A stretch of DNA of 64,000 nt from Clostridia bacterium. GTDB lineage: Bacteria > Bacillota > Clostridia > Oscillospirales > Acutalibacteraceae. The first letter of the stretch is position 1, and every line of letters starts with the position of its first letter. Shown here piece after piece: positions 746 through 16,431 of this stretch. The stretch covers positions 1-64,000 of the forward strand of contig JAFQVM010000016.1 of assembly GCA_017407995.1 (NCBI GenBank), read 5' to 3'. The position numbers were made by a program, and so were the translations under genes. The notes beneath the pieces are model-generated. The model did no database searches. It saw only the letters and a list, made by a program, of their open reading frames with translations, and had not been told where the DNA came from.

Positions 746-774
746 TTGACATTTTTGCTTTGAAGGAGTAAAAT
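746..774 (+). promoter_or_regulatory. Sigma-A promoter of the Leu T-box operon
   Basis: TTGACA (746-751) and TAAAAT (769-774) are separated by exactly 17 bases. The promoter lies just upstream of the T-box leader and just downstream of the recombinase remnant. Confidence 0.85.
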
Positions 775-794
775 ACAGAAAAATTAATATAATA

Positions 795-1068
795 AAGCGT
801 TGAAGAAGAATGGTCAAGACGAATATATTCAGAGAGTCGGTGGTTGGTGCGAACCGATATATATAGAGCTTGTTCCTCTCCCTTCCGAGCAGGGAACCTG
901 AAGCGAAAGTGTGTAGGGTGACACGTGTTTGCTACGTAAGTGCATAGAAGTTGTCGGACTTCGAAAAAGTGGCAGATATTTATATCTGCAATTTGAGTGG
1001 TACCGCGAGTGATAAATTATAATTTACACCCGTCTCAAAGCAATCAGAAGGCTTTGGGGCGGTTTTTA
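795..1068 (+). ncRNA. T-box leader, predicted tRNA-Leu specificity (CUC specifier)
   Basis: This is a transcription-attenuation leader that senses uncharged tRNA. Stem I carries the AGAGAG and GGTTGGTGCGAACC elements (832-857). The T-box proper is AATTTGAGTGGTACCGCG (991-1008). TTGAG can pair with CTCAA to form the antiterminator. The competing terminator is 1031-1042 with 1052-1063, followed by five T. The specifier region reads CTCTC at 877-881. Aligning it with the second leader in this window puts the codon at 879-881 (CTC), and the neighbouring register also reads CTC, so leucine is the best reading. The UGGU sequence would pair with a tRNA having discriminator A, as tRNA-Leu does. The operon should be expressed when charged tRNA-Leu is scarce. 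Confidence 0.9.
1031..1068 (+). terminator. Regulated terminator of the Leu T-box
   Basis: A 12-bp stem with G-U pairs (1031-1042 with 1052-1063) is followed by TTTTT. Its left arm overlaps the antiterminator, as in classical T-box attenuators. Confidence 0.85.
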
Positions 1069-1099
1069 CGTTTTTATTAAAAATTTTTGGGGTGATACG

Positions 1100-1540
1100 A
1101 TGTATTTTGATGAGCTTGAACACGGTATGACGGTGGACACAGCTCCCGCCATAATTAAAAAAGAAAAAATGATGGATTTTGCCCGTGATTATGATAATAT
1201 TCCGCTACATACCGATGAGGAGTATGCCCAAAACACACCTTTCGGTCAACTCATTGCATCGGGTGTGATGTCGTTTATGTCGGTTTGGGCAAAATATCTC
1301 GAGGTTGATTTTTTCGGCAAGGAATTGCTTGCGGGAAAATCCACTAAAATCGAATGGCTTAAGCCTGTTTATGCCGATGATATGCTGACAGGCAAGGCAA
1401 CAATAACAAATCTTGTTAAACGAAGCGCCAAAAACGGTCTTGTTGAGCTTTCCATAGATGTTTACAATCAAAATGGCGAGCTCGTTTTAAAAGATGTAAC
1501 GGAAGCTATCGTTAAATGTAAGACGACATATAAAGATTGA
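1100..1540 (+). CDS. MaoC-like (hot-dog fold) dehydratase
   Basis: This 146-residue protein has the single hot-dog domain of MaoC-like hydratases, which add water to or remove it from enoyl/3-hydroxyacyl thioesters. The catalytic Asp/His pair is visible in the segment DNIPLHTD, followed by FGQLIASGVM, matching the family pattern. The canonical Asn two residues after the Asp is shifted by one, so activity is likely but not certain. It is the first gene behind the Leu T-box, with GGGGTG before the ATG, and 22 bases separate it from the ACT-MBL gene. With an acyl-CoA ligase in the same operon, an acyl-CoA (or carrier-bound acyl) substrate is a reasonable inference. The physiological substrate is unknown. 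Confidence 0.85.
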   Translation: MYFDELEHGMTVDTAPAIIKKEKMMDFARDYDNIPLHTDEEYAQNTPFGQLIASGVMSFMSVWAKYLEVDFFGKELLAGKSTKIEWLKPVYADDMLTGKATITNLVKRSAKNGLVELSIDVYNQNGELVLKDVTEAIVKCKTTYKD

Positions 1541-1562
1541 TGATAGTTTTTGAGGTGGCGAA

Positions 1563-2999
1563 ATGAAAAAGACCTATGTTACTTCTATGCCGAATCATAT
1601 CGGCGCATTTTTGAAGGCAAGTAAATGCTTCTCTGCTTTGGGAATCAACATCACCCGTGTAAGCTATAACAAAGCGGTTGATTCTCACACCTTGTTTATC
1701 GATGCAGAAGGCACGGAAGAACAGCTGAAAAAAGCAGATGTTGAACTTGAAAAAATCGGGTATTTGCAAGGCAATACCAATAAAACAAGTGTTGTTCTGA
1801 TTGAATTTTGTCTTGAAGATAAACCCGGAAGTGTTACAAACATTTTAACACTTATCAACGATTTTAATTTCAATATTTCATATATCAGTTCGCAGGAAAA
1901 CGGCACGGATTATCAATACTTCAAAATGGGGTTATATGTTGATGATTTTGATAAAATATCCGAGTTTATGAAAGAAGCAGAAAAGCTATGTAAAGTCAGG
2001 GTTATCAATTATAACAGTTCGGAAAAGGTTTATGATAACAGCATTTTCTATAACACATACGTTATGGGACTTTCACAGACAATGGGACTTTCAGAGGATA
2101 TCAGCCGTGAACTGTTGGTTCACGTTAACCTTGCGATGCAAACGCTTGACGAGCAAGGTTTATCGCCTTACAGAACGTTCGACAGTATAAGCAAATTCGC
2201 TGAACTTCTCGGTGCTTCAAAAGGCAAATCATTTGCACCGAGAGTCAGCACCCATAAAATATCCGAAAACACGGAAATCACTTTGATAGAACCTCCCTGC
2301 GGCAGTAATACCATAGTTATAAAGAGCAACGGAAAGGTTTTGTTTGTAGACAGCGGATATGCTTGTTACAGCGATGAAATGATTGCTGTTCTGAAAAAGG
2401 TTGTTCCTGATTTTGAAAAAAACAAGAAAACAATTCTTGTAACTCATGCTGATGTTGACCATTGCGGTATGTTACCTATATTCGATGAAATCATAACAAG
2501 CAAAAAGACTGCCCTATGTCTAAAAAACGAATATCTCGGTAATGACGGTTACCGAGAAAAAAATCCCCTTCATAAACCGTATATCAACATCTGTAAAATT
2601 CTTACCTCATATAGAGCGACAAAACCCGATAAGATTACTGCTCTTTGGAACGATATTGAGAATTTAACAGAACCTCTTACTCAAATCGGATTTTTTGATT
2701 TTGAAGAGCTGCACTTTGAGGTTTACGAAGGCAAGGGTGGACATTTGCCAGGTGAAATCGTTTTGATTGATTATTCAAAGCACCTTGCAATTACGGGTGA
2801 TATATACATAAATACTCACGGACTTACACCTGAGCAAGCAGAATACAATCAATACGCACCTATCCTGATGACATCTGTTGATACCAACCCAAAACTATGT
2901 GCCGAAGAAAGAAAAGCAATAATGCAAAGACTTGGTGTGGGTCAATGGCAAATCTTCGGAGCACACGGTTTTAAGAAAGATTATTCCGTCAATTCATAA
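1563..2999 (+). CDS. Tandem ACT-domain protein fused to a metallo-beta-lactamase-fold domain
   Basis: This 478-residue cytoplasmic protein has no signal peptide. Residues about 1-70 and 75-155 form two ACT-like domains (KPGSVTNILTLINDFNFNI in the second), which usually bind amino acids. Residues about 225-470 form a metallo-beta-lactamase-fold hydrolase. Its metal motif is H295-A-D-V-D-H300, a HxDxDH variant of the usual HxHxDH (the variant seen in ComEC-type domains). GGHLPGE and AITGD supply further ligands. The ORF follows the MaoC gene by 22 bases and precedes the LeuA-like gene by about 33, so all are co-transcribed under the Leu T-box. The architecture suggests a hydrolase gated by an amino acid, plausibly leucine or a relative. 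That is inference; I know no characterised homologue. Confidence 0.8.
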   Translation: MKKTYVTSMPNHIGAFLKASKCFSALGINITRVSYNKAVDSHTLFIDAEGTEEQLKKADVELEKIGYLQGNTNKTSVVLIEFCLEDKPGSVTNILTLINDFNFNISYISSQENGTDYQYFKMGLYVDDFDKISEFMKEAEKLCKVRVINYNSSEKVYDNSIFYNTYVMGLSQTMGLSEDISRELLVHVNLAMQTLDEQGLSPYRTFDSISKFAELLGASKGKSFAPRVSTHKISENTEITLIEPPCGSNTIVIKSNGKVLFVDSGYACYSDEMIAVLKKVVPDFEKNKKTILVTHADVDHCGMLPIFDEIITSKKTALCLKNEYLGNDGYREKNPLHKPYINICKILTSYRATKPDKITALWNDIENLTEPLTQIGFFDFEELHFEVYEGKGGHLPGEIVLIDYSKHLAITGDIYINTHGLTPEQAEYNQYAPILMTSVDTNPKLCAEERKAIMQRLGVGQWQIFGAHGFKKDYSVNS

Positions 3000-3032
3000 A
3001 CATAATACATAAAAATAAAGGAGCATTTTAAA

Positions 3033-4421
3033 ATGAAAAAAATAAACATTTCTGATATTACACTCAAAAAACTTTCTATGGACAGAGCTGTTTCACTGCT
3101 CTTTCGTGAAAAATCAGCCATTGCCAACTGTGCAGACAAAATCGGCGTTGATACAATCGAACTTCCTGCCGTAAAATCTCTTCGTGAAGATGCAATTGTT
3201 TATAAAACCATAGCACAAAATATTCAGAACGCCGTTCTTGCGATTCCTGTAGGATTTGACTGTGAAAGCATTGCTTCTGCATGGGAATGCATCAAAGAAG
3301 CGAAAAAACCCAGACTTCAGATTGAACTGCCTGTTTCCACTATTCAGATGGAATATACATACCACGTCAAGCAGGCTAAAATGATTGAAAAAATTGCCGA
3401 ACTTATTAAAACGGCAAAAACTTTTTGTGATGACATTGAATTCTCTGCCAATGATGCAACAAGAGCAGACGAAGAATTTCTCATTGCCGCAGTTAAAGAA
3501 GCCGAAGCAAACGGAGCAACTGTTATAACTGTTTGTGACGATGCAGGTATTTCCACTCCCGATAATATTGGGGCCCTTGTTGCAAAAGTAAAAGAAGCTG
3601 TAACTATACCCGTTTATGTTCAGGCTTCTGACCGTATCAATGTGGCGGTTGCATCCGCTTTTTCTGCAATTTCAAACGGAGCCGACGGACTTAAATGCGC
3701 TATGGTTGGCAAGGATGTTCTCCTGACCGGTGAATTTTCTGATGCCGTAAATGCTTGCGGTGCACAGTTCGGTGCTGAAATCAAGCTGAACAACACAAAA
3801 ATCCATGCAAATATCGATGATATGGTGTCAAGCATCAGCCATGATGTCCGTGAAACAGAAAACGAAATAAGCGAAAAGAAAAAAATCCTGCTTGACTCCG
3901 ACTCAACTGCTGCTCAGGTTTCACAGGCTGCAGCAGTATTGGGATACGAGCTTTCAGATACAGATATCGGCAATGTGTACAAAGCGCTCAAACAGGTGTG
4001 CGATAAGAAAGGCTCAGTCGGTTCAAAGGAGTTTGAGGCATTGATTGCAAGTTCAGCTATGCAGGCTCCTTCTACTTATCATTTTGAAACTTATACTACA
4101 ACAAGCAGTAATGTTTCAAATTCTATGTCACAGGTAACCTTGAAATGCAATGACGAAATTATCTGCGGAGTAAGCAATGGTGACGGTCCCATTGACTCTG
4201 CTTTCCGTGCAATCGAGCAGTGTGTCGGTCATCACTACGAATTGGATGATTTTCAGGTACAGTCTGTAACAGAAGGCAAAGAAGCTTTGGGTTCAGCCCT
4301 TGTCAGACTCCGCAACGACGGAAAATTATATTCGGGCAACGGTACATCCACCGATATTATTGCTGCAAGTATCAGAGCATATATCAACGCATTGAACAAA
4401 ATTGTTTTTGAGGAGGCATAA
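3033..4421 (+). CDS. 2-isopropylmalate synthase-like protein with a lost metal site and a LeuA regulatory domain
   Basis: This 462-residue protein has a DRE-TIM (HMGL-like) barrel at about 1-260 and a C-terminal LeuA dimer/allosteric domain at about 320-460 (NGDGPIDSAFRA, GNGTSTDIIAASIRAY). In genuine isopropylmalate synthases the N-terminus reads DTTLRDGEQ; here it reads DITLKKLSM, losing the catalytic Arg and the metal-binding Asp. The HxHND motif near residue 195 is replaced by VQASDR, so both metal His are gone. FSANDATRAD and CDDAGISTPDN show that the rest of the barrel is conserved. The LeuA domain, which binds leucine in true enzymes, looks intact. It is therefore probably not a synthase but a leucine sensor, scaffold or divergent enzyme. 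AAAGGAG precedes the start, and the stop falls just before the next gene's ATG. Confidence 0.8.
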   Translation: MKKINISDITLKKLSMDRAVSLLFREKSAIANCADKIGVDTIELPAVKSLREDAIVYKTIAQNIQNAVLAIPVGFDCESIASAWECIKEAKKPRLQIELPVSTIQMEYTYHVKQAKMIEKIAELIKTAKTFCDDIEFSANDATRADEEFLIAAVKEAEANGATVITVCDDAGISTPDNIGALVAKVKEAVTIPVYVQASDRINVAVASAFSAISNGADGLKCAMVGKDVLLTGEFSDAVNACGAQFGAEIKLNNTKIHANIDDMVSSISHDVRETENEISEKKKILLDSDSTAAQVSQAAAVLGYELSDTDIGNVYKALKQVCDKKGSVGSKEFEALIASSAMQAPSTYHFETYTTTSSNVSNSMSQVTLKCNDEIICGVSNGDGPIDSAFRAIEQCVGHHYELDDFQVQSVTEGKEALGSALVRLRNDGKLYSGNGTSTDIIAASIRAYINALNKIVFEEA

Positions 4422-4422
4422 T

Positions 4423-6882
4423 ATGAAAATTGTATTTTCAACCAAGAATGTGGACCGTGCATCTTTTCTTGACACCTGCCGTTATGCCTATGATTACGGT
4501 TTTGAAGGTTTTGAAATCTATGATGCTGTTAAGGAACGCAATTCTCATTACGACAGTATTTTAAGAAGAGAACGTGTCGCTGATGCCAAACGAAAACTTG
4601 TTAACAGAAATCTTGCTGTGTCTGCTCTCCGTATGCCTGCTCCCATTGAAAGTGACGAAACATCTTCAGAGCTTATCTGTAAATATGTGGATATGGCAGC
4701 AACTTCGGGAATCGACAATGTAATTATAAGAGTTGAAGAAAACATTCCGTTTGATATGTTGGAAAAAAAACTTTCGGATGCAATCAAGCACGCAGAGGCA
4801 ACAGATGTCAATATCTTATTTGAAACTGTTGGTTATCTTGCAAACACTGAAAATGTGATTGCCATTATCAACCAATTTGCTTCTGCTGTTATAGGTGCTT
4901 CGTGGAATGTGAGAGGAACATATTTTGATGCCGGCGAAAGTTCGGAAACCACAATTAAGAATTTGGGTGCATATATCAAATATGTGCGTCTCGGCGACAT
5001 GAAAGACGGAAAGACCGTCTTAATCGGTGAAGGTGATTTGGATGTAAGCAAACTTCTGAATGCACTTTCATCTCTCAACTATGAAGGCTTTATCTGTGCC
5101 GCTTGGAATGAAGAAATCAGCGATGCCGATATTGTTCTTACTCATTTCACCAACTATATCTCTGCTCTCAATCGCAACAAAAAATCTTATGACCACATAT
5201 ATTACAACCGAGATAAAACAGGTACATTTGTTTGGAAAAAGTTTGATGTTATTGACAAGACATTCTCTGAGGTTCTTGATACAATGGCAGAAACATATCC
5301 CGACCAGTATGCTTTTAAATATCCTACACTGGACTACACAAGAACTTATGAACAATTCCGCCGTGATGTAGATGAATGCGCTGCTGCACTTATTTCACTC
5401 GGCGTAAAAGCAGGAGACCACGTTGCTGTTTGGGCAACCAATGTTCCTCAATGGTTTATCACTTTTTGGGCAACAACAAAGATTGGCGCTGTTCTTGTCA
5501 CGGTAAATACAGCTTACAAAATTCACGAAATCGAATATCTTTTAAAGCAATCGGATACCCATACACTTGTTATGATTGAGGATTGCAAAGACATCAATTA
5601 CAAAGAGATTATAGAAGAACTCTGCCCTGAACTTAAAGGTCTTAAAGCGGGGAAACCGTTATATTCAAAGAACCTTCCTTTTCTTCGCAATGTTGTAACC
5701 GTCGGTTTATCAATGGATGGTTGCCTTACTTGGGAACAGATGCTTTCCCGTTCTACGCTTGTTCCCCGTGAAGAAGTCCGCAGACGTGCATCTCTTGTTA
5801 AACCCGATGACGTATGTAATATGCAGTACACGTCTGGTACAACGGGTTTTCCCAAGGGTGTCATGCTCACTCATCGTAATATTGTTAACAACGGCAAAAC
5901 CATCGGTGACAGAATGGATTTATCAACCGCAGACCGTATGATGATTCAGGTTCCCATGTTCCATTGCTTCGGGATGGTTCTTTCAATGACTTCTATGATG
6001 ACTCACGGCGGTACTCTTTGCCCGATTCCGTATTTCTCTCCGAAATCTTCACTTTCCTGTGTGAATGATGAGCGTATCACTTGCTTCAACGGTGTTCCCA
6101 CAATGTTTATTGCTATGTTCAATCATCCGGATTTTGCAAAAACTGATTTCTCATATATGAGAACGGGTATTATGGCGGGTGCAAACTGTCCTGCTGACCT
6201 GATGCGCCGTGCATCGGTTGAAATGAATATGCGTGAAATTATTTCTGTTTACGGTCAGACAGAAGCGTCACCTGGGTGCACCATGGGCGAAGTGAACGAA
6301 GATCTTGACCACAGAGTAGAAACTGTCGGCAGTGCATTCCCCGGTGTGGAATGCAAAATCATCGACCCCGAAACGGGTGACGAACTTCCCGACGGTGAAA
6401 GCGGCGAATTTGTTGCTCGTGGCTTTAATATTATGAAAGGATATTATAAGATGCCCGAAGCGACCGCACAGGCAATTGATGCTGATGGTTGGCTTCATTC
6501 AGGTGATATCTGTATGAGAACATCTGACGGATATTATAAAGTTACAGGACGTCTTAAAGATATGATTATCCGTGGCGGTGAAAATCTTTATCCCCGTGAA
6601 ATTGAAGAATTCTATCTGACTAACCCGAAAGTCCGTGATGTTCAGGTTGTCGGTGTTCCCGATGAAAGATATGGAGAAGAATGTTGTGCCTGGATTATTC
6701 TTCACAAGGGCGAAACCGCAGATGAAAATGAAATGCGTGAATTCGGTAATGCTTCAATTGCAAGACATAAAGTTCCGAGATACTTTATGTTTGTTAATGA
6801 GTTCCCGATGAATGCCGCAGGAAAGATTCTTAAATATAAAATGCGTGATGAATCCGCAGAAAAGTTAGGTTTAAAAAAATGA
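4423..6882 (+). CDS. Sugar-isomerase-like TIM barrel fused to an AMP-forming acyl-CoA ligase
   Basis: Two domains are fused. Residues about 1-260 resemble xylose-isomerase/AP-endonuclease-2-like TIM barrels (ILFETVGY, YVRLGDMKDG, GEGDLD). Residues about 275-819 are a complete ANL-family acyl-CoA synthetase. The ligase keeps the ATP loop YTSGTTGFPKG (near residue 469), YGQTEAS, GWLHSGD, KVTGRLKDMIIRGGENLYP and the C-terminal catalytic Lys in AAGKILKYKMRD, so it should activate a carboxylic acid with ATP and CoA. The barrel lacks one usual His ligand (R in YVRLGD), so its activity is doubtful. I chose the ATG at 4423, which has GAGGAGG upstream and follows the previous stop by one base. An earlier in-frame start at 4402 lies inside the upstream gene. 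Its substrate is unknown. Confidence 0.85.
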   Translation: MKIVFSTKNVDRASFLDTCRYAYDYGFEGFEIYDAVKERNSHYDSILRRERVADAKRKLVNRNLAVSALRMPAPIESDETSSELICKYVDMAATSGIDNVIIRVEENIPFDMLEKKLSDAIKHAEATDVNILFETVGYLANTENVIAIINQFASAVIGASWNVRGTYFDAGESSETTIKNLGAYIKYVRLGDMKDGKTVLIGEGDLDVSKLLNALSSLNYEGFICAAWNEEISDADIVLTHFTNYISALNRNKKSYDHIYYNRDKTGTFVWKKFDVIDKTFSEVLDTMAETYPDQYAFKYPTLDYTRTYEQFRRDVDECAAALISLGVKAGDHVAVWATNVPQWFITFWATTKIGAVLVTVNTAYKIHEIEYLLKQSDTHTLVMIEDCKDINYKEIIEELCPELKGLKAGKPLYSKNLPFLRNVVTVGLSMDGCLTWEQMLSRSTLVPREEVRRRASLVKPDDVCNMQYTSGTTGFPKGVMLTHRNIVNNGKTIGDRMDLSTADRMMIQVPMFHCFGMVLSMTSMMTHGGTLCPIPYFSPKSSLSCVNDERITCFNGVPTMFIAMFNHPDFAKTDFSYMRTGIMAGANCPADLMRRASVEMNMREIISVYGQTEASPGCTMGEVNEDLDHRVETVGSAFPGVECKIIDPETGDELPDGESGEFVARGFNIMKGYYKMPEATAQAIDADGWLHSGDICMRTSDGYYKVTGRLKDMIIRGGENLYPREIEEFYLTNPKVRDVQVVGVPDERYGEECCAWIILHKGETADENEMREFGNASIARHKVPRYFMFVNEFPMNAAGKILKYKMRDESAEKLGLKK

Positions 6883-6908
6883 TTTAAACTTTTTAGAGGC
6901 GAAACCAA

Positions 6909-7709
6909 ATGGAAAAGCACAAAATAATAGATGCTCATTGTCATATATATCCCGATAAGATTGCTCAAAAAGCATCTGCCCATACAGGTGATTTTTACAA
7001 TATATCACCACTTTTGGATGGTAAGATATCTACTCTTTTGGAGCATGGTGAAAAAGCCGGAATTGAGCATTTTGTTGTTCAGTCTGTTGCAACAACACCG
7101 TGTCAGGTTTCAAGCATAAACAACTTCATTGCAGATTCAGTAGCTCAAAGCAACGGCAAATTTACCGGTCTGGGCACTCTTCATCCTGACAGTGACGATA
7201 TAGAAGCGGATGTCAATGAACTTATCGGTCTTGGCTTAAATGGCGTAAAACTTCATCCTGACATACAGCAGTTCAAAATAGACGACTACCGTATGCTTAA
7301 AATATACGAACTTTGCGAAGGCAGACTTCCGATTCTTATGCATACGGGCGATTCTCGTTTTGACTATTCAAACCCCAACAGAATGAAACCTATACTTGAT
7401 ATTTATACAGATCTAACCGTTATAGGTGCTCATTTAGGAGGTTGGTCAATGTGGGAAGAAGCTACGGAAAACCTTTGCAAATATAAGAATTTTTATGTGG
7501 ACTGTTCTTCTTCGCTTTATGCATTAACACCCGAAAAAGCAAAAGAACTTATAATGGCATACGGTACAAAACGTGTGCTTTTTGGTACGGATTATCCTCT
7601 GTGGGAACCCGAAGCTGAAACAGCAAGATTTATGCAATTAGAGTTGTCCGAGTATGAACGGGAAGATATACTATATAACAATGCAGCAAAAATATTCAAC
7701 ATTGAATAA
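6909..7709 (+). CDS. Amidohydrolase-2 family metal-dependent hydrolase
   Basis: This 266-residue TIM-barrel hydrolase starts with the metal-binding DAHCHIYP motif. It retains the other expected ligands: KLHPD, a His in ILMHTGDS, a His in VIGAHLGG and the terminal Asp in LFGTDYPLW. Members of this family hydrolyse amides, lactones or decarboxylate aromatic acids; nothing here fixes the substrate. AGAGGCG lies upstream and only 26 bases separate it from the ligase gene, so it is the last gene of the Leu T-box operon. The active site looks intact, unlike that of the LeuA-like protein in the same operon. No obvious terminator follows before the second T-box. Confidence 0.85.
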   Translation: MEKHKIIDAHCHIYPDKIAQKASAHTGDFYNISPLLDGKISTLLEHGEKAGIEHFVVQSVATTPCQVSSINNFIADSVAQSNGKFTGLGTLHPDSDDIEADVNELIGLGLNGVKLHPDIQQFKIDDYRMLKIYELCEGRLPILMHTGDSRFDYSNPNRMKPILDIYTDLTVIGAHLGGWSMWEEATENLCKYKNFYVDCSSSLYALTPEKAKELIMAYGTKRVLFGTDYPLWEPEAETARFMQLELSEYEREDILYNNAAKIFNIE

Positions 7710-7764: not shown

Positions 7765-8020
7765 TTTGAATATCACAAAGAGCGACTATGATGAAGACGG
7801 TCGGAATGCAAAGCAAAACAGAGAGTTGCCGGTTGGTGCGAGGCAATAAGTGGAACCTTCCAAAGACTATCACTTCTGAGTCGGAGGACCGAAAGCGAAA
7901 GTGAGTAGACTCCTTCCGTAATGCTGCGTAAAGGCAAAGGGCTTGTTAGAGCCCGGAAAGTGACGGAAATATTCTTTCCGTAACTTGAGTGGTACTGAGG
8001 GTTTAACAACCCGTCTCAAA
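7765..8020 (+). ncRNA. Truncated T-box leader, predicted tRNA-Ile specificity (AUC)
   Basis: Stem I is clear, with AGAGAGTTGCC, GGTTGGTGCGAGGCAA and the specifier segment GACTATCACTTCTGAG, giving AUC (Ile) at 7869-7871. The antiterminator TTGAG...CTCAA (7984-8019) is present with GTGGTAC, but the CCGCG half of the T-box is changed to CTGAG. Beyond 8020 there is no partner for CCGTCTCAA, so the terminator arm is missing. No aminoacyl-tRNA synthetase or ilv gene follows; the next gene in this orientation is malQ, behind an unrelated terminator. The leader has probably lost its original gene. The sequence around 7731 could be its promoter (TTGACT) but is weak. Confidence 0.8.
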
Positions 8021-8024
8021 TGTT

Positions 8025-11396: not shown

Positions 11397-13622
11397 ATGA
11401 AACAACCGGAACAGAAATTGTTGTTTGAGAGCGGTAACGAGCTGGCAGCTTATGCTGCCAAGCAAATTAATTACCATGTTATGGGATACTATCCCATAAC
11501 GCCATCTACCCAGATTGCGGAGTTTTTGGACCAGATGGGAGCGGATGGGGAGCATAACATTGCACTGATACCGGCAGAAGGAGAACACAGTGCAGCCGGA
11601 ATTTGTTACGGCGCAGCGTCTGGAGGCGGTAGGGTTTTCAATGCAACCTCAGCTAACGGACTCCTTTATGCACTTGAGCAACTTCCTGTCCAGTCGGGTA
11701 CTCGACTGCCTATGGTGCTAAACGTTGCCTGCCGTACAGTGTCAGGACCTCTTTCAATTAAAGGTGACCACAGCGACCTTATGTACACTCTCAATACGGG
11801 TTGGGTGATTTTGTTTGCTGATTCGCCTCAGGAAGTTTACGATTGTAATATCTGTGCGGTTAAGATAGCGGAAAAATTGCGACTTCCGGCTATTGTAGCG
11901 TTTGACGGATTTTTTACCAGCCATCAAAAGAGGAATTGTTACGTATTTGCCGATGATGAGATTGTGCAAAAATTCATCGGGCCGGGGATGGAGAACGTAG
12001 GTGTATTAGACCCGGAGCATCCGGTTACCATAGGTTCTTATATGAATGAACCGGACTTGTTGAATAATAAATATCAGTTGCATTTGGCTATGGAAAAGGC
12101 ACGCACTATGATTCCTGAGGTGTTCAGCGAATACGAACAGTTGTCAGGCAGAACACTCAGTGCGGTAAAAGCTTATCAAACGGAAGATGCAGAAGTTTTG
12201 ATGTTTGTACTTGGGTCGGCATATCTAACTGCCAAAGCAGCAGTGGATAAGCTTAGAAAAGATGGAAAAAAGGTAGGCGTGTTTACGTTAGGTGTTCTGC
12301 GACCGTTTCCTACAGAGGAAGTATCTAAGATTTGTAAAAATGCCCGCATTATTTTAGTGGCGGACAGGCAAGACAGCTACGGTGCCGGTGGCGGAAATAT
12401 GTCATTGGAGATACGTGCTGCACTTCAACAAAGCGGATTGACTACACGTGTTCTAAGCAGGGTCTACGGTCTTGGAGGCCGAGATTTCTATGAAAAGGAT
12501 GCAATCAGTCTTTTTGAAACTTGCTATGAGCAAGATGTCCCTGCATTTGATTATATCGCTGTTGACCCTGGAGAGGCGGACTTTGTGCCTAAGCCTTATT
12601 TTGCGCCTATAAGCGAAGAGACAGCTTCAGGTCTTACCGTGTGCAGTGAAGAAAACGGTAAGGTGGTTGTGAAGGGCGGAACTGTTCGTGATACAACGGC
12701 CAGACCAAAACGCCTTGCTCCGGGTCATGGTGCTTGTCCGGGCTGCGGAATTCCGGTTAACGTTAATCTTTTGCTTCGTGGAATCGAGGGCAACGTTGTG
12801 CTTTTATTTCAGACGGGCTGCGGTATGGTAGTTACCACAGGATATCCTAAAACAGCTTTTCGGGTACCGTATGTACACAATCTGTTTCAGAACGGCGCTG
12901 CTACATTGGCGGGCGTTGCTAAAATGTATCATCAGCGTCAGGAACGGGGAGAATTGCCTCCTGGTGATATCACATTCATTATGGTCAGCGGAGACGGAGG
13001 TATGGATATCGGCATGGGTTCGGCGTTAGGTACGGCGTTACGTGGTGACCCTGTAATACTGTTTGAGTATGACAACGGAGGCTACATGAACACAGGATAT
13101 CAGCTGTCATACTCTACACCTATGGGGGCTAAAAGTGCTACTTCTCACTTGGGGTCGCATAGGTGGGGTAAGGAATTCTTTCATAAGGATATGCCGAGAA
13201 TAATGGCGGCTACCGGAATGCCTTATGTGGCTACCGCAGCGGAGTCCGACCCTGCAGATTTCATTCGCAAAGCGGCGAAAGCTCAGTATTACGCTAAAAA
13301 CCACGGAACGGCATATATTAAGTGTTTGTCCGCTTGTCCGCTCAATTGGGGAGACAAGCCTAATACAGAACGTAAGGTTATTTCTGCGGCTGTAAATAGT
13401 TGTTATTTTCCTCTTTATGAGGTTGAACAGGGATGTACAACCATTTCTTATAATCCTGAGCAGAAAGATAAGAAGATTCCGGTGGAAGATTGGCTAAAAA
13501 TGATGGGACGTACTAAGCATTTGTGCGGTGAAAAATATAAAGATGTCCGAGAGATGATACAGCAGGAGGTTGACCGCCGTTGGCAGCGTTTGAAGGCGCA
13601 ATCGGAGCATCATCTGTTGTGA
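11397..13622 (+). CDS. 2-oxoacid:ferredoxin oxidoreductase, fused alpha and beta subunits
   Basis: This 741-residue fusion has an alpha part at about 1-390 (GYYPITPSTQIAEFL, ATSANGLLYALEQLP, ADRQDSYGAGGG) and a beta part at about 440-735. The beta part has the cluster/TPP motifs HGACPGCG, TGCGMV and GDGGMDIGMGSAL. With the preceding gamma-delta protein it forms a complete CoA- and ferredoxin-dependent oxidoreductase. ATG 11397 follows the upstream TGA by one base, with GGAGG overlapping that gene's 3' end, so the pair is translationally coupled. The alpha-beta plus gamma-delta fusion arrangement is less common than four separate subunits. VOR-type specificity for branched-chain 2-oxoacids is plausible given the Leu and Ile T-boxes upstream, but this is inference. 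Confidence 0.88.
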   Translation: MKQPEQKLLFESGNELAAYAAKQINYHVMGYYPITPSTQIAEFLDQMGADGEHNIALIPAEGEHSAAGICYGAASGGGRVFNATSANGLLYALEQLPVQSGTRLPMVLNVACRTVSGPLSIKGDHSDLMYTLNTGWVILFADSPQEVYDCNICAVKIAEKLRLPAIVAFDGFFTSHQKRNCYVFADDEIVQKFIGPGMENVGVLDPEHPVTIGSYMNEPDLLNNKYQLHLAMEKARTMIPEVFSEYEQLSGRTLSAVKAYQTEDAEVLMFVLGSAYLTAKAAVDKLRKDGKKVGVFTLGVLRPFPTEEVSKICKNARIILVADRQDSYGAGGGNMSLEIRAALQQSGLTTRVLSRVYGLGGRDFYEKDAISLFETCYEQDVPAFDYIAVDPGEADFVPKPYFAPISEETASGLTVCSEENGKVVVKGGTVRDTTARPKRLAPGHGACPGCGIPVNVNLLLRGIEGNVVLLFQTGCGMVVTTGYPKTAFRVPYVHNLFQNGAATLAGVAKMYHQRQERGELPPGDITFIMVSGDGGMDIGMGSALGTALRGDPVILFEYDNGGYMNTGYQLSYSTPMGAKSATSHLGSHRWGKEFFHKDMPRIMAATGMPYVATAAESDPADFIRKAAKAQYYAKNHGTAYIKCLSACPLNWGDKPNTERKVISAAVNSCYFPLYEVEQGCTTISYNPEQKDKKIPVEDWLKMMGRTKHLCGEKYKDVREMIQQEVDRRWQRLKAQSEHHLL

Positions 13623-15345: not shown

Positions 15346-16431
15346 TTATTCACTTATTGTGGAAATCTCTACTACACACGCATCAGATGTTGAAACACAT
15401 ACGGTATACTCGCCGCTGAATTTGCTGATGTCAAATCTGTTTTCGCCCTCACAGGTCTCTTCGATAACGATGTTGTTCTGAGCATCAATAACCTTGATGT
15501 CGACAGGCTGCTCGTATTCGTAATAGGTGTTAGCGCCTCGTGCGTTGATTACAAGATATTTATCATTTGCATCGGCAACGAAAGTGGCTTTCTTTTCTTC
15601 GCTGTTTAAGGCATTAAAACCAAACGTTGCGGGCAGAGTCAAACCGTTCTTAGGTGTCATGTGGACATTCTCAAACGGCACCTCTTCACTGGCATAACAG
15701 CTTGCTACTGTTTCTATATCTGTTACAGTGACGATGTATTCACCTTTTGGAAGGAATACCACACGATATGCCCATTCTGAGCCATGTATATTTATGTTGC
15801 TTGTCACTTTTTTGCCGTCTTTGTTTTCGATATAGAAATTGCAGTCGTATTCGAGAATGCAGGCCTCGCTGGGCATAAATCGGACAAGAGCATCTTTTTC
15901 GAGTGAGAGTGCGAATTTTGCATTGCCGTTTTCGTCAGCTTTTGCGATAGCTGTTGAGTCAAGCTTTAAGTTGGACGGCTCATCTGTATCGGGAGCGAAG
16001 GCCCATGCAACATAGACCTGTTCCATGTCTTTTGGGGCATCTTTAAAGGTGATTTCAGCGCTTATATCGCCTTTTTCAAAATATATCTCGTCAGTGAAGC
16101 CGTAGGTGGCTTTAACATCTATATATGTTTTGCTTTCGCTTGTGAAGGTTACAAAGGCTTCTGCATATTCATCGGGCCATTCTTCGTATTCGGTAGCATC
16201 ATAGGCCAAGAGCTTGAAAAATCCCGCTTCGGGCAGTTCAAAGTTGATTTTTAATCCTTTAGCACCGTTCAGGTCATATGTTTTTTCGCCTTCAAAATAA
16301 CCTTCGGTATTACCTCGATATACGACAGAAAACACAGGGAAATCAGTATCTTTAATTATGCCTGAACAGCCACACAGAATTAAAGATAAGAGTAAAAGCA
16401 AAACTAAAAAAAGAACAGTGATTTTCTTCAT
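15346..16431 (-). CDS. Secreted lipoprotein of unknown function
   Basis: The 361-residue precursor has a lipoprotein signal: MKK, a long Leu-rich hydrophobic core, and a lipobox ending LILCGC with Cys22 as the predicted lipidated residue. The mature part is acidic and predicted beta-rich, probably two or three Ig-like/jelly-roll repeats (FELPEAGFFKLLAYDA and FDISKFSGEYTVCVSTSDA look like related strands). No catalytic motif was recognised. I chose the ATG at 16431, which has AAAGGAG eight bases upstream; a GTG three codons earlier is less well placed. It is a monocistronic unit ending at the shared terminator. An extracellular binding or cell-surface role is inferred only from the signal and fold. 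Confidence 0.75.
   Translation of the reverse strand: MKKITVLFLVLLLLLSLILCGCSGIIKDTDFPVFSVVYRGNTEGYFEGEKTYDLNGAKGLKINFELPEAGFFKLLAYDATEYEEWPDEYAEAFVTFTSESKTYIDVKATYGFTDEIYFEKGDISAEITFKDAPKDMEQVYVAWAFAPDTDEPSNLKLDSTAIAKADENGNAKFALSLEKDALVRFMPSEACILEYDCNFYIENKDGKKVTSNINIHGSEWAYRVVFLPKGEYIVTVTDIETVASCYASEEVPFENVHMTPKNGLTLPATFGFNALNSEEKKATFVADANDKYLVINARGANTYYEYEQPVDIKVIDAQNNIVIEETCEGENRFDISKFSGEYTVCVSTSDACVVEISTISE

Follow-up and report, generated by a model that had tools for sequence, protein, structure and literature searches.

Isoacids are given as feed to ruminants. According to the available part of a published account, work by Allison and colleagues from the 1960s on described the formation of leucine from isovalerate by reductive carboxylation in rumen bacteria, and parallel rumen routes lead from 2-methylbutyrate to isoleucine and from isobutyrate to valine (PMC7356843). 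The genes of the route from isovalerate to leucine were not found in our literature search, which covered titles and abstract openings. A further reference point is MbcS of Staphylococcus aureus, which, in the part of its description available to us, prefers 2-methylbutyrate and isobutyrate, is poor at using isovalerate and supplies fatty acid synthesis (PMC10026030). Here, we describe an operon in a 64,000-nucleotide stretch of clostridial DNA (the window) that we consider likely to represent the leucine arm of a T-box-controlled system that turns branched-chain volatile acids into branched-chain amino acids, with a LeuA relative, LeuA*, as its probable sensor. The operon would probably let a gut bacterium build leucine from the waste acid isovalerate under leucine shortage. 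Titles and abstract openings searched, with most subscription journals and preprints outside the scope, contained no description of this gene set.

The operon is preceded by a promoter match, TTGACA-17-TAAAAT (746-774, + strand), which is a consensus match only, at 11/12 positions; because the scan returned 31 promoter-like sites versus 21.6 in shuffles, this match is weak on its own. It is followed on the same strand by T-box leader 1 (791-1040; Rfam RF00230, 95.9 bits, exceeding the gathering score of 93), in which pattern search, inspection by eye and a position rule place the specifier codon CUC (Leu) at 878-880, and by a leader terminator hairpin at approximately 1030-1062 (-18.7 kcal/mol, z -4.43) that runs into T's. 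A simple terminator scan omits this hairpin because its loop of 9 is above the limit of 8 of that scan, and Stem I folded alone was not better than shuffles (z 0.67). In relatives with this leader type, the specifier remains CUC or CUG, with CUG adjoining the lower helix once, in L154. We also considered the UCU (Ser) and CCU (Pro) registers and disfavour both because, in same-type leaders, the CUC that adjoins the lower helix has A, C or G as the next base, and because the UGGU T-box of leader 1 presumably suits the discriminator A of tRNA-Leu. A first-pass annotation of this DNA had described a promoter and a T-box with a CUC specifier ahead of five co-directional genes, and the consensus scan, RF00230, the ORF list and Pfam confirm this arrangement; the specifier check that it had proposed came out in favour of CUC (Leu).

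The five genes, all on the + strand, encode a MaoC-type hydratase (gene 1, 1100-1540; Pfam PF01575, 50.1 bits), a protein with an ACT domain and a metallo-beta-lactamase fold (MBL; gene 2, 1563-2999; PF01842 and PF00753, Lactamase_B), LeuA* (gene 3, 3033-4421; by Pfam and motif alignment an HMGL-like barrel without catalytic motifs joined to a LeuA_dimer allosteric domain), a TIM barrel (AP_endonuc_2) fused to an AMP-forming acyl-CoA ligase (gene 4, 4423-6882, by Pfam; the start is taken as the ATG at 4423, and the ORF list has a TTG at 4402), and an amidohydrolase (Amidohydro_2; gene 5, 6909-7709; PF04909, 103.6 bits). The proposal that two of these proteins carry domains of an amino-acid-binding type was borne out by the ACT and LeuA_dimer matches. 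Gene 2 had been read as ACT-ACT-MBL; Pfam recovers Lactamase_B and a single ACT domain at residues 79-142, and a second ACT-like stretch at residues 1-72, unsupported by Pfam, would be only our own reading. Behind the operon, a second T-box (T-box 2; 7779-8021, + strand; 79 bits, under the cut-off) has the specifier AUC (Ile) at 7869-7871. Folding revealed no hairpin with a T run 3' of it, malQ rather than a ligase gene comes next, and T-box 2 is probably a relic.

To what extent relatives share this neighbourhood had been raised as a check, and the outcome is divided: the LeuA* and TIM-ligase pair is conserved, the full set of five genes is not. Specifically, the pair is present in 79/80 named loci, with a contig end falling in the TIM domain of the 80th, and the TIM-ligase was found in 80/81 LeuA* genomes. 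The amidohydrolase is a frequent companion of this core (24/81 sources), and MaoC and MBL are each occasional (8/81). No second locus with all five genes in this order was seen among the loci inspected, many of which are cut by contig ends. The conserved unit is LeuA* plus TIM-ligase and the five-gene set is local; a fixed five-gene pathway was rejected on the basis of gene order across the inspected loci. Among 16 distant loci, genes for subunits of a 2-oxoacid:ferredoxin oxidoreductase (VOR) lie near the core in eight and an IlvE gene in seven, and in L224 Leu, Ile and Val T-boxes stand in series, each ahead of a ligase, with VOR after the last; VOR and IlvE genes are absent from the operon in the window.

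These neighbourhoods bear on the possibility that the product, made or salvaged, is a different leucine-linked acyl compound (isovaleryl-CoA destined for lipids, or an enoyl- or 3-hydroxyacyl-CoA handled by MaoC), with leucine supply only a proxy signal. It is favoured by MaoC, MBL and the amidohydrolase, for which a simple isovalerate route to leucine has no place (that route also assigns the TIM barrel no role), and by the NCBIfam model that matches the gene 4 ligase best, which describes a general fatty acid CoA ligase family (674 bits versus a cut-off of 832); the Pfam scores of this ligase are 318.3 bits for AMP-binding and 56.4 bits for AMP-binding_C. However, the rarity of MaoC and MBL near the core, the VOR and IlvE neighbours, which indicate amino acids, and the position of a second ligase behind Ile and Val T-boxes make this explanation unlikely. 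Because the core lies near VOR and IlvE genes in relatives and ilvC is rare in LeuA* genomes, the likely product is leucine itself. The idea of a leucine-related acyl pathway switched on when charged tRNA-Leu falls is supported, as are the Leu T-box and the amino-acid-binding-type domains, and is refined to leucine made from isovalerate.

Gene content is skewed. In draft bins, and against hand-chosen comparison (split-match) genomes in which LeuA motifs were checked in 3 and counts are uncorrected for relatedness, ilvC was found in 2/30 LeuA* genomes versus 21/30, leuB in 3/30 versus 21/30, and vorB in 28/30 versus 13/30. Two LeuA* genomes (G089 and G254) have both ilvC and leuB, 9/30 comparison genomes lack ilvC, and several comparison genomes (G003, G015, G019, G028, G033, G063 and G188) contain a sister TIM-ligase. 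The window's own genome, a bin that is 86% complete, yielded no ilvC and, besides LeuA*, no LeuA-like match with an E below 1e-5. Its VorB shares 67% identity with the L120 query (E 4e-157) and is encoded together with beta- and gamma-subunit-like genes; in addition, a Val T-box precedes an ilvB-like gene. The initial statement that usual leucine genes, including leuB, are missing holds for the operon but not for the genome, where leuB scores over cut-off at C30:208631, outside the operon. The Ile-type ligase encoded here matches 100 families, the best of them being the MbcS model NF047394 at 501.8 bits, below its cut-off of 850. Because the Ile/Val ligase is MbcS-like and MbcS, in the available part of its description, is poor on isovalerate (PMC10026030), a separate isovalerate ligase would be expected.

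The specifier is conserved across LeuA* loci. Among 113 distinct LeuA* upstream regions, a script that includes a helix check read Leu in 92 (89 CUC, 3 CUG), with the others comprising 4 non-Leu reads, 5 unread, 11 without a T-box and 1 short sequence; counts were kept as computed. By eye, each of the four non-Leu leaders (L151, L153, L205 and L210) has CUC adjoining the lower helix, so that these look like misreads, and the same holds for three of the five unread leaders (L121, L125 and L208). Upstream of the other ligase (LIG2), the same script gave Ile 31, Val 12 and Leu 0 of 50. PaaK leaders (n=12) were unreadable by the script rule (7 unread, 2 without a T-box, 2 short, 1 wrong), and a GAA-type pattern placed UUC in L131, L138, L142, L153 and L163. 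We also considered that the operon could serve leucine breakdown from 2-oxoisocaproate to isovalerate, in keeping with the ability of VOR to run oxidatively in peptide fermenters. Because a T-box turns genes on at amino acid scarcity, Leu is read in 92/113 upstreams, and AMP-forming ligases usually go towards acyl-CoA, we regard breakdown as barely credible; the flux would instead run towards leucine.

LeuA* contains the LeuA allosteric domain (PF08502, 110.1 bits) and scores below the NCBIfam equivalog cut-offs (259.5 versus 532 and 235.6 versus 598.7 bits). In a comparison of 113 LeuA* sequences with 3 canonical LeuA, nearly every LeuA* sequence has other residues in place of R, D, G and E in LRDGEQ, of the two histidines in HxH and of the asparagine in GERAGN, and all 113 have a gap at the GER stretch. 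The first-pass annotation was silent on the missing catalytic motifs. Could LeuA* still be catalytic, with an altered active site, and supply a leucine precursor, making the operon a variant of the isopropylmalate route? The barrel is under selection, with D8, T10 and many core residues invariant among 31 aligned sequences, yet the loss of the catalytic residues and the rarity of leuB and ilvC among LeuA* genomes render this very unlikely. With its catalytic motifs lost and its leucine-binding domain retained, LeuA* probably senses leucine on behalf of the ligase, and the operon appears to have converted a dead leucine-making enzyme into a sensor of leucine.

The TIM barrel of gene 4 also differs between groups. 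At E143, D171, H174, H198 and E240 (L233 numbering), which we take to be the acidic and His site residues of a xylose-isomerase-like TIM enzyme, the group of the window has D171 replaced by N in 30/30, H198 by R in 30/30 and E240 by A in 28/30, whereas the sister TIM-ligase group retains the site residues in 30/30; L205 and L209 have LeuA* alongside intact TIM residues. A PDB sequence search with the TIM domain alone gave no match, and a profile search gave two weak PDB matches, the best being MJ1311 (3wqo). Recent horizontal transfer as the source of the 93-96% ligase identity was rejected because, when the window is compared with eight loci, identity at fourfold-degenerate sites is just 0.30-0.50. 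With slightly less than even confidence in the combination as a whole, we suggest that a dead leucine-biosynthesis enzyme was taken up by an isovalerate-CoA ligase as its leucine-sensing subunit; that this ligase began with its own TIM barrel, site residues intact, which decayed after LeuA* joined, L205 and L209 being surviving intermediates; and that the Leu, Ile, Val and probably Phe T-box/ligase units form a codon-addressed network in which each volatile acid is turned into its own amino acid.

In our working model for the operon, a drop in charged tRNA-Leu would let uncharged tRNA-Leu bind the CUC T-box, and transcription would read through. The gene 4 ligase would convert isovalerate, the substrate that we infer, to isovaleryl-CoA; the ferredoxin-dependent VOR, encoded elsewhere in the genome and near the core in several relatives, would carboxylate this to 2-oxoisocaproate; and a branched-chain aminotransferase would yield leucine. 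LeuA*, probably in a complex with the TIM-ligase, would shut the ligase down when leucine is plentiful. If true, a long-known rumen route gains its leucine-specific ligase, together with the RNA switch that controls it and what is probably a feedback sensor. Marker genes would then allow the branched acid on which a given gut bacterium depends to be predicted from its genome, and LeuA* would provide a clean example of an enzyme pared down to a sensing role.

The proposed overall chemistry is that of the rumen isovalerate carboxylation pathway; the available part of that account names no genes, RNA switch or leucine sensor, and the operon would add them (PMC7356843). With T-box-controlled branched-chain operons that include leuA, the locus has in common the leader type, specifier logic, antitermination and genes for amino acid supply, but the part of that study available to us names leuA, tRNA ligases and transporters and neither an acid-activating CoA ligase nor an inactive LeuA (PMC2494555). 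Activation of branched-chain acids is common to MbcS, in the available part of its description (PMC10026030), and to the role proposed for the ligase of the operon. The Ile-type ligase of the window's genome has MbcS as its best NCBIfam match, whereas the Leu-type ligase belongs to another branch of the superfamily and is fused to a TIM barrel. Finally, LeuA* has, like 2-isopropylmalate synthase (LeuA), an HMGL-like barrel and a LeuA allosteric domain in one chain, but differs from it in the loss of the catalytic and metal motifs, the gapped GER stretch and scores far below every equivalog cut-off.

The operon that the first-pass annotation had placed at 746-7709 is present, with five co-directional genes behind a promoter match, a T-box leader and a terminator, and its leader reads CUC, confirming the CTC specifier claimed there. 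Specifiers were read as three bases, the last of which lies six bases 5' of the lower-stem GAG. The genome bin (1.67 Mb, 86% complete, 31 contigs, with the window at the start of contig C1) holds 13 T-box matches, 7 of them over cut-off; applied by eye, the position rule gave GUA for the leader of a ValS-like gene, UGG for those of TrpS- and TrpB-like genes, AUC for that of an IleS-like start, UUC for that of a PheT-like gene and GUC for that of an ilvB-like gene (gene names being by-eye calls from translations), and it fails on the AsnS-like leader, which has a longer lower stem. At 14806-15424 of contig C4, two close T-boxes diverge, one UUC (Phe), followed by a PheT-like gene, and one GUC (Val), leading an ilvB-like gene; despite the latter, the search of this genome gave no ilvC. 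A second T-box in the window, at 7779-8021 downstream of the operon, reads AUC (Ile) and has malQ 3' of it in place of a ligase; no terminator-like hairpin plus T run was found behind it. A comparable Ile T-box leads an HTH-cupin-ligase (LIG2) and an MBL gene in the relatives L050, L158 and L163, and the window copy is probably a relic.

The third gene (3033-4421, forward strand) encodes LeuA*, an HMGL-like barrel with a LeuA allosteric domain. Among 113 distinct 450-nt LeuA* upstreams, which like the LIG2 set include related sequences and are hence non-independent, the script read Leu in 92 (89 CUC and 3 CUG), five were unread and one was too short; four were read otherwise (GGU, AUA, GGA and AAG), by eye misreads, and 11 hold no T-box in that stretch, including those of the window, L141, L142 and L181, in which MaoC is the first gene. 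For 50 LIG2 upstreams, the same script returned Ile (AUC) in 31, Val (GUA) in 12 and Leu in none, with five unread, one odd (AGG) and one short. With no Leu read among these upstreams, the specifier-reading rule carries no Leu bias. Phe (UUC) T-boxes precede a phenylacetate-CoA-ligase-like gene and then a small two-ACT protein in L131, L138, L142, L153 and L163, which looks like an aromatic counterpart leading from phenylacetate to phenylalanine; Tyr (UAC) T-boxes precede a sodium:solute symporter-like gene in L159 (minus strand, near 13559) and L176 (minus strand, near 16250).

Used as the query against genome contigs, the LeuA-like protein found 545 candidates encoding a relative. In the best 80 of these, where those contig titles that mention a host point to ruminants (goat, sheep, cattle, buffalo, yak and deer), a TIM domain lies 3' of LeuA* in all 80 and the ligase in 79, the sole exception being L126, where the contig stops within TIM. 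ORF clusters over these loci plus the window, with counts limited by contig ends and the 35% identity link, comprised TIM-ligase (79), LeuA* (77), LIG2 (34), amidohydrolase (24), P-loop protein (16), VorB (15), PaaK (11), MaoC (8) and MBL (8). The MBL protein is present in 38 of 295 genomes of the order, and 35 MBL loci include LeuA* in one (L058), the ligase end in another (L050) and MaoC in five. The five-gene set is therefore a local arrangement of a conserved pair, LeuA* and the TIM-ligase (4423-6882, forward strand), with variable companions. Of 394 genomes sampled from the order, 81 encode full-length LeuA* by hand count; in a phylum sample it was present in 2 of 398, one being the genome studied here; the ligase at E <= 1e-180 occurs in 170 of the 394, covering 80 of the 81 LeuA* genomes, three of these 80 matching only near 1e-190 to 1e-202. 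The pair also lies on a contig titled Spirochaetales (L193, roe deer rumen), reflecting either cross-phylum transfer or a binning error.

When the 113 LeuA* were aligned with three canonical LeuA (counts covering the commonest letters only), R12 was K in 92 (R kept in 8), D13 was K in 85, E15 was S or A in 100, H201 was Q in 79 and H203 was S in 105; in GERAGN, GER was gapped in all 113 and N237 was V, A or I in 90. The allosteric domain is retained, and we infer that LeuA* is a non-catalytic, leucine-binding protein. The TIM barrel has likewise lost residues: in the window group (n=30), D171 is N in 30, H174 is G, E or A in 29, H198 is R in 30 and E240 is A in 28. All four are kept in 30/30 of a sister group, whose TIM-ligases come from genomes not among the 81 and are 64-68% identical in the ligase. 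Of these 30, 18 had no T-box pattern within 450 nt, and the script gave CUC in 7, misread 4 and left 1 unread; by eye, the last five include CUC in L231 and L235 and, less certainly, L238. Among 18 further LeuA* loci the loss is graded, L205 and L209 keeping all six site residues, L216 four and the other 15 at most three. Together with the intact sister group, this suggests an order of events: fusion under Leu control, then the arrival of LeuA*, then decay of the TIM site. The window ligase is 93-96% identical in protein to those of eight loci (82-97% over 79 loci); the fourfold sites, just 0.30-0.50 identical, rule out recent exchange as the source of this similarity, and the combination points to strong selection on the ligase.

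Gene content was compared between the 30 best LeuA* genomes and 30 further genomes of the order whose match is split in the way typical of canonical LeuA, picked non-randomly from roughly 110 other matching genomes and with LeuA motifs checked in three (L213-L215). With relatedness uncorrected throughout, leuB exceeded the cut-off in 3/30 versus 21/30 (Fisher p 3e-6), ilvC in 2/30 versus 21/30 (p 5e-7), and VorB at E <= 1e-40 was found in 28/30 versus 13/30 (p 5e-5). The rule is not strict: G089 and G254 have LeuA* together with ilvC and leuB, and ilvC is missing from 9/30 comparison genomes. Seven of the 30 comparison genomes carry a sister TIM-ligase (E < 1e-250), with vorB in six and ilvC absent in five of the seven.

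As a '3-methyl-2-oxobutanoate dehydrogenase subunit VorB', VorB reaches 557 bits (cut-off 399), and as a branched-chain aminotransferase IlvE reaches 494.6 (cut-off 307); PaaK and the beta-subunit-like protein score under their respective cut-offs. In 16 hand-picked distant LeuA* loci (L198-L212 and L216), subunits of this ferredoxin-dependent 2-oxoacid oxidoreductase (VOR) lie at most ~6 kb away in eight and IlvE in seven, and L203 reads LIG2 end, P-loop, VorB, VorA-like, IlvE, LeuA*, TIM-ligase. In L224, consecutive Leu, Ile and Val T-boxes (by eye) are each followed by their own ligase, the last then by P-loop, VorB and VorA-like genes. In the genome studied here, C21 carries P-loop, VorB, and beta- and gamma-subunit-like genes, and near 178,000 of C1 an AUC T-box is accompanied by an HTH-cupin ORF and a ligase ORF. 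At L222:6038-8294 (G000:C1), an AUC T-box is followed by two overlapping ORFs, one for the HTH-cupin part and one for the ligase part; relatives have a single fused protein.

Alongside the leader, gene order and residue loss observed here, we infer a chemistry and a feedback. Low charged tRNA-Leu would cause antitermination and production of the ligase, which would convert isovalerate to isovaleryl-CoA; VOR would then yield 2-oxoisocaproate and the aminotransferase leucine, and leucine bound to LeuA* would inhibit the ligase. As a guess, the ACT-bearing MBL could be a thioesterase that releases CoA when the amino acid is in good supply. The rumen isovalerate route is established physiology (PMC7356843). 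MbcS accepts 2-methylbutyrate and isobutyrate and uses isovalerate poorly (PMC10026030), and a separate ligase for Leu fits this substrate range.
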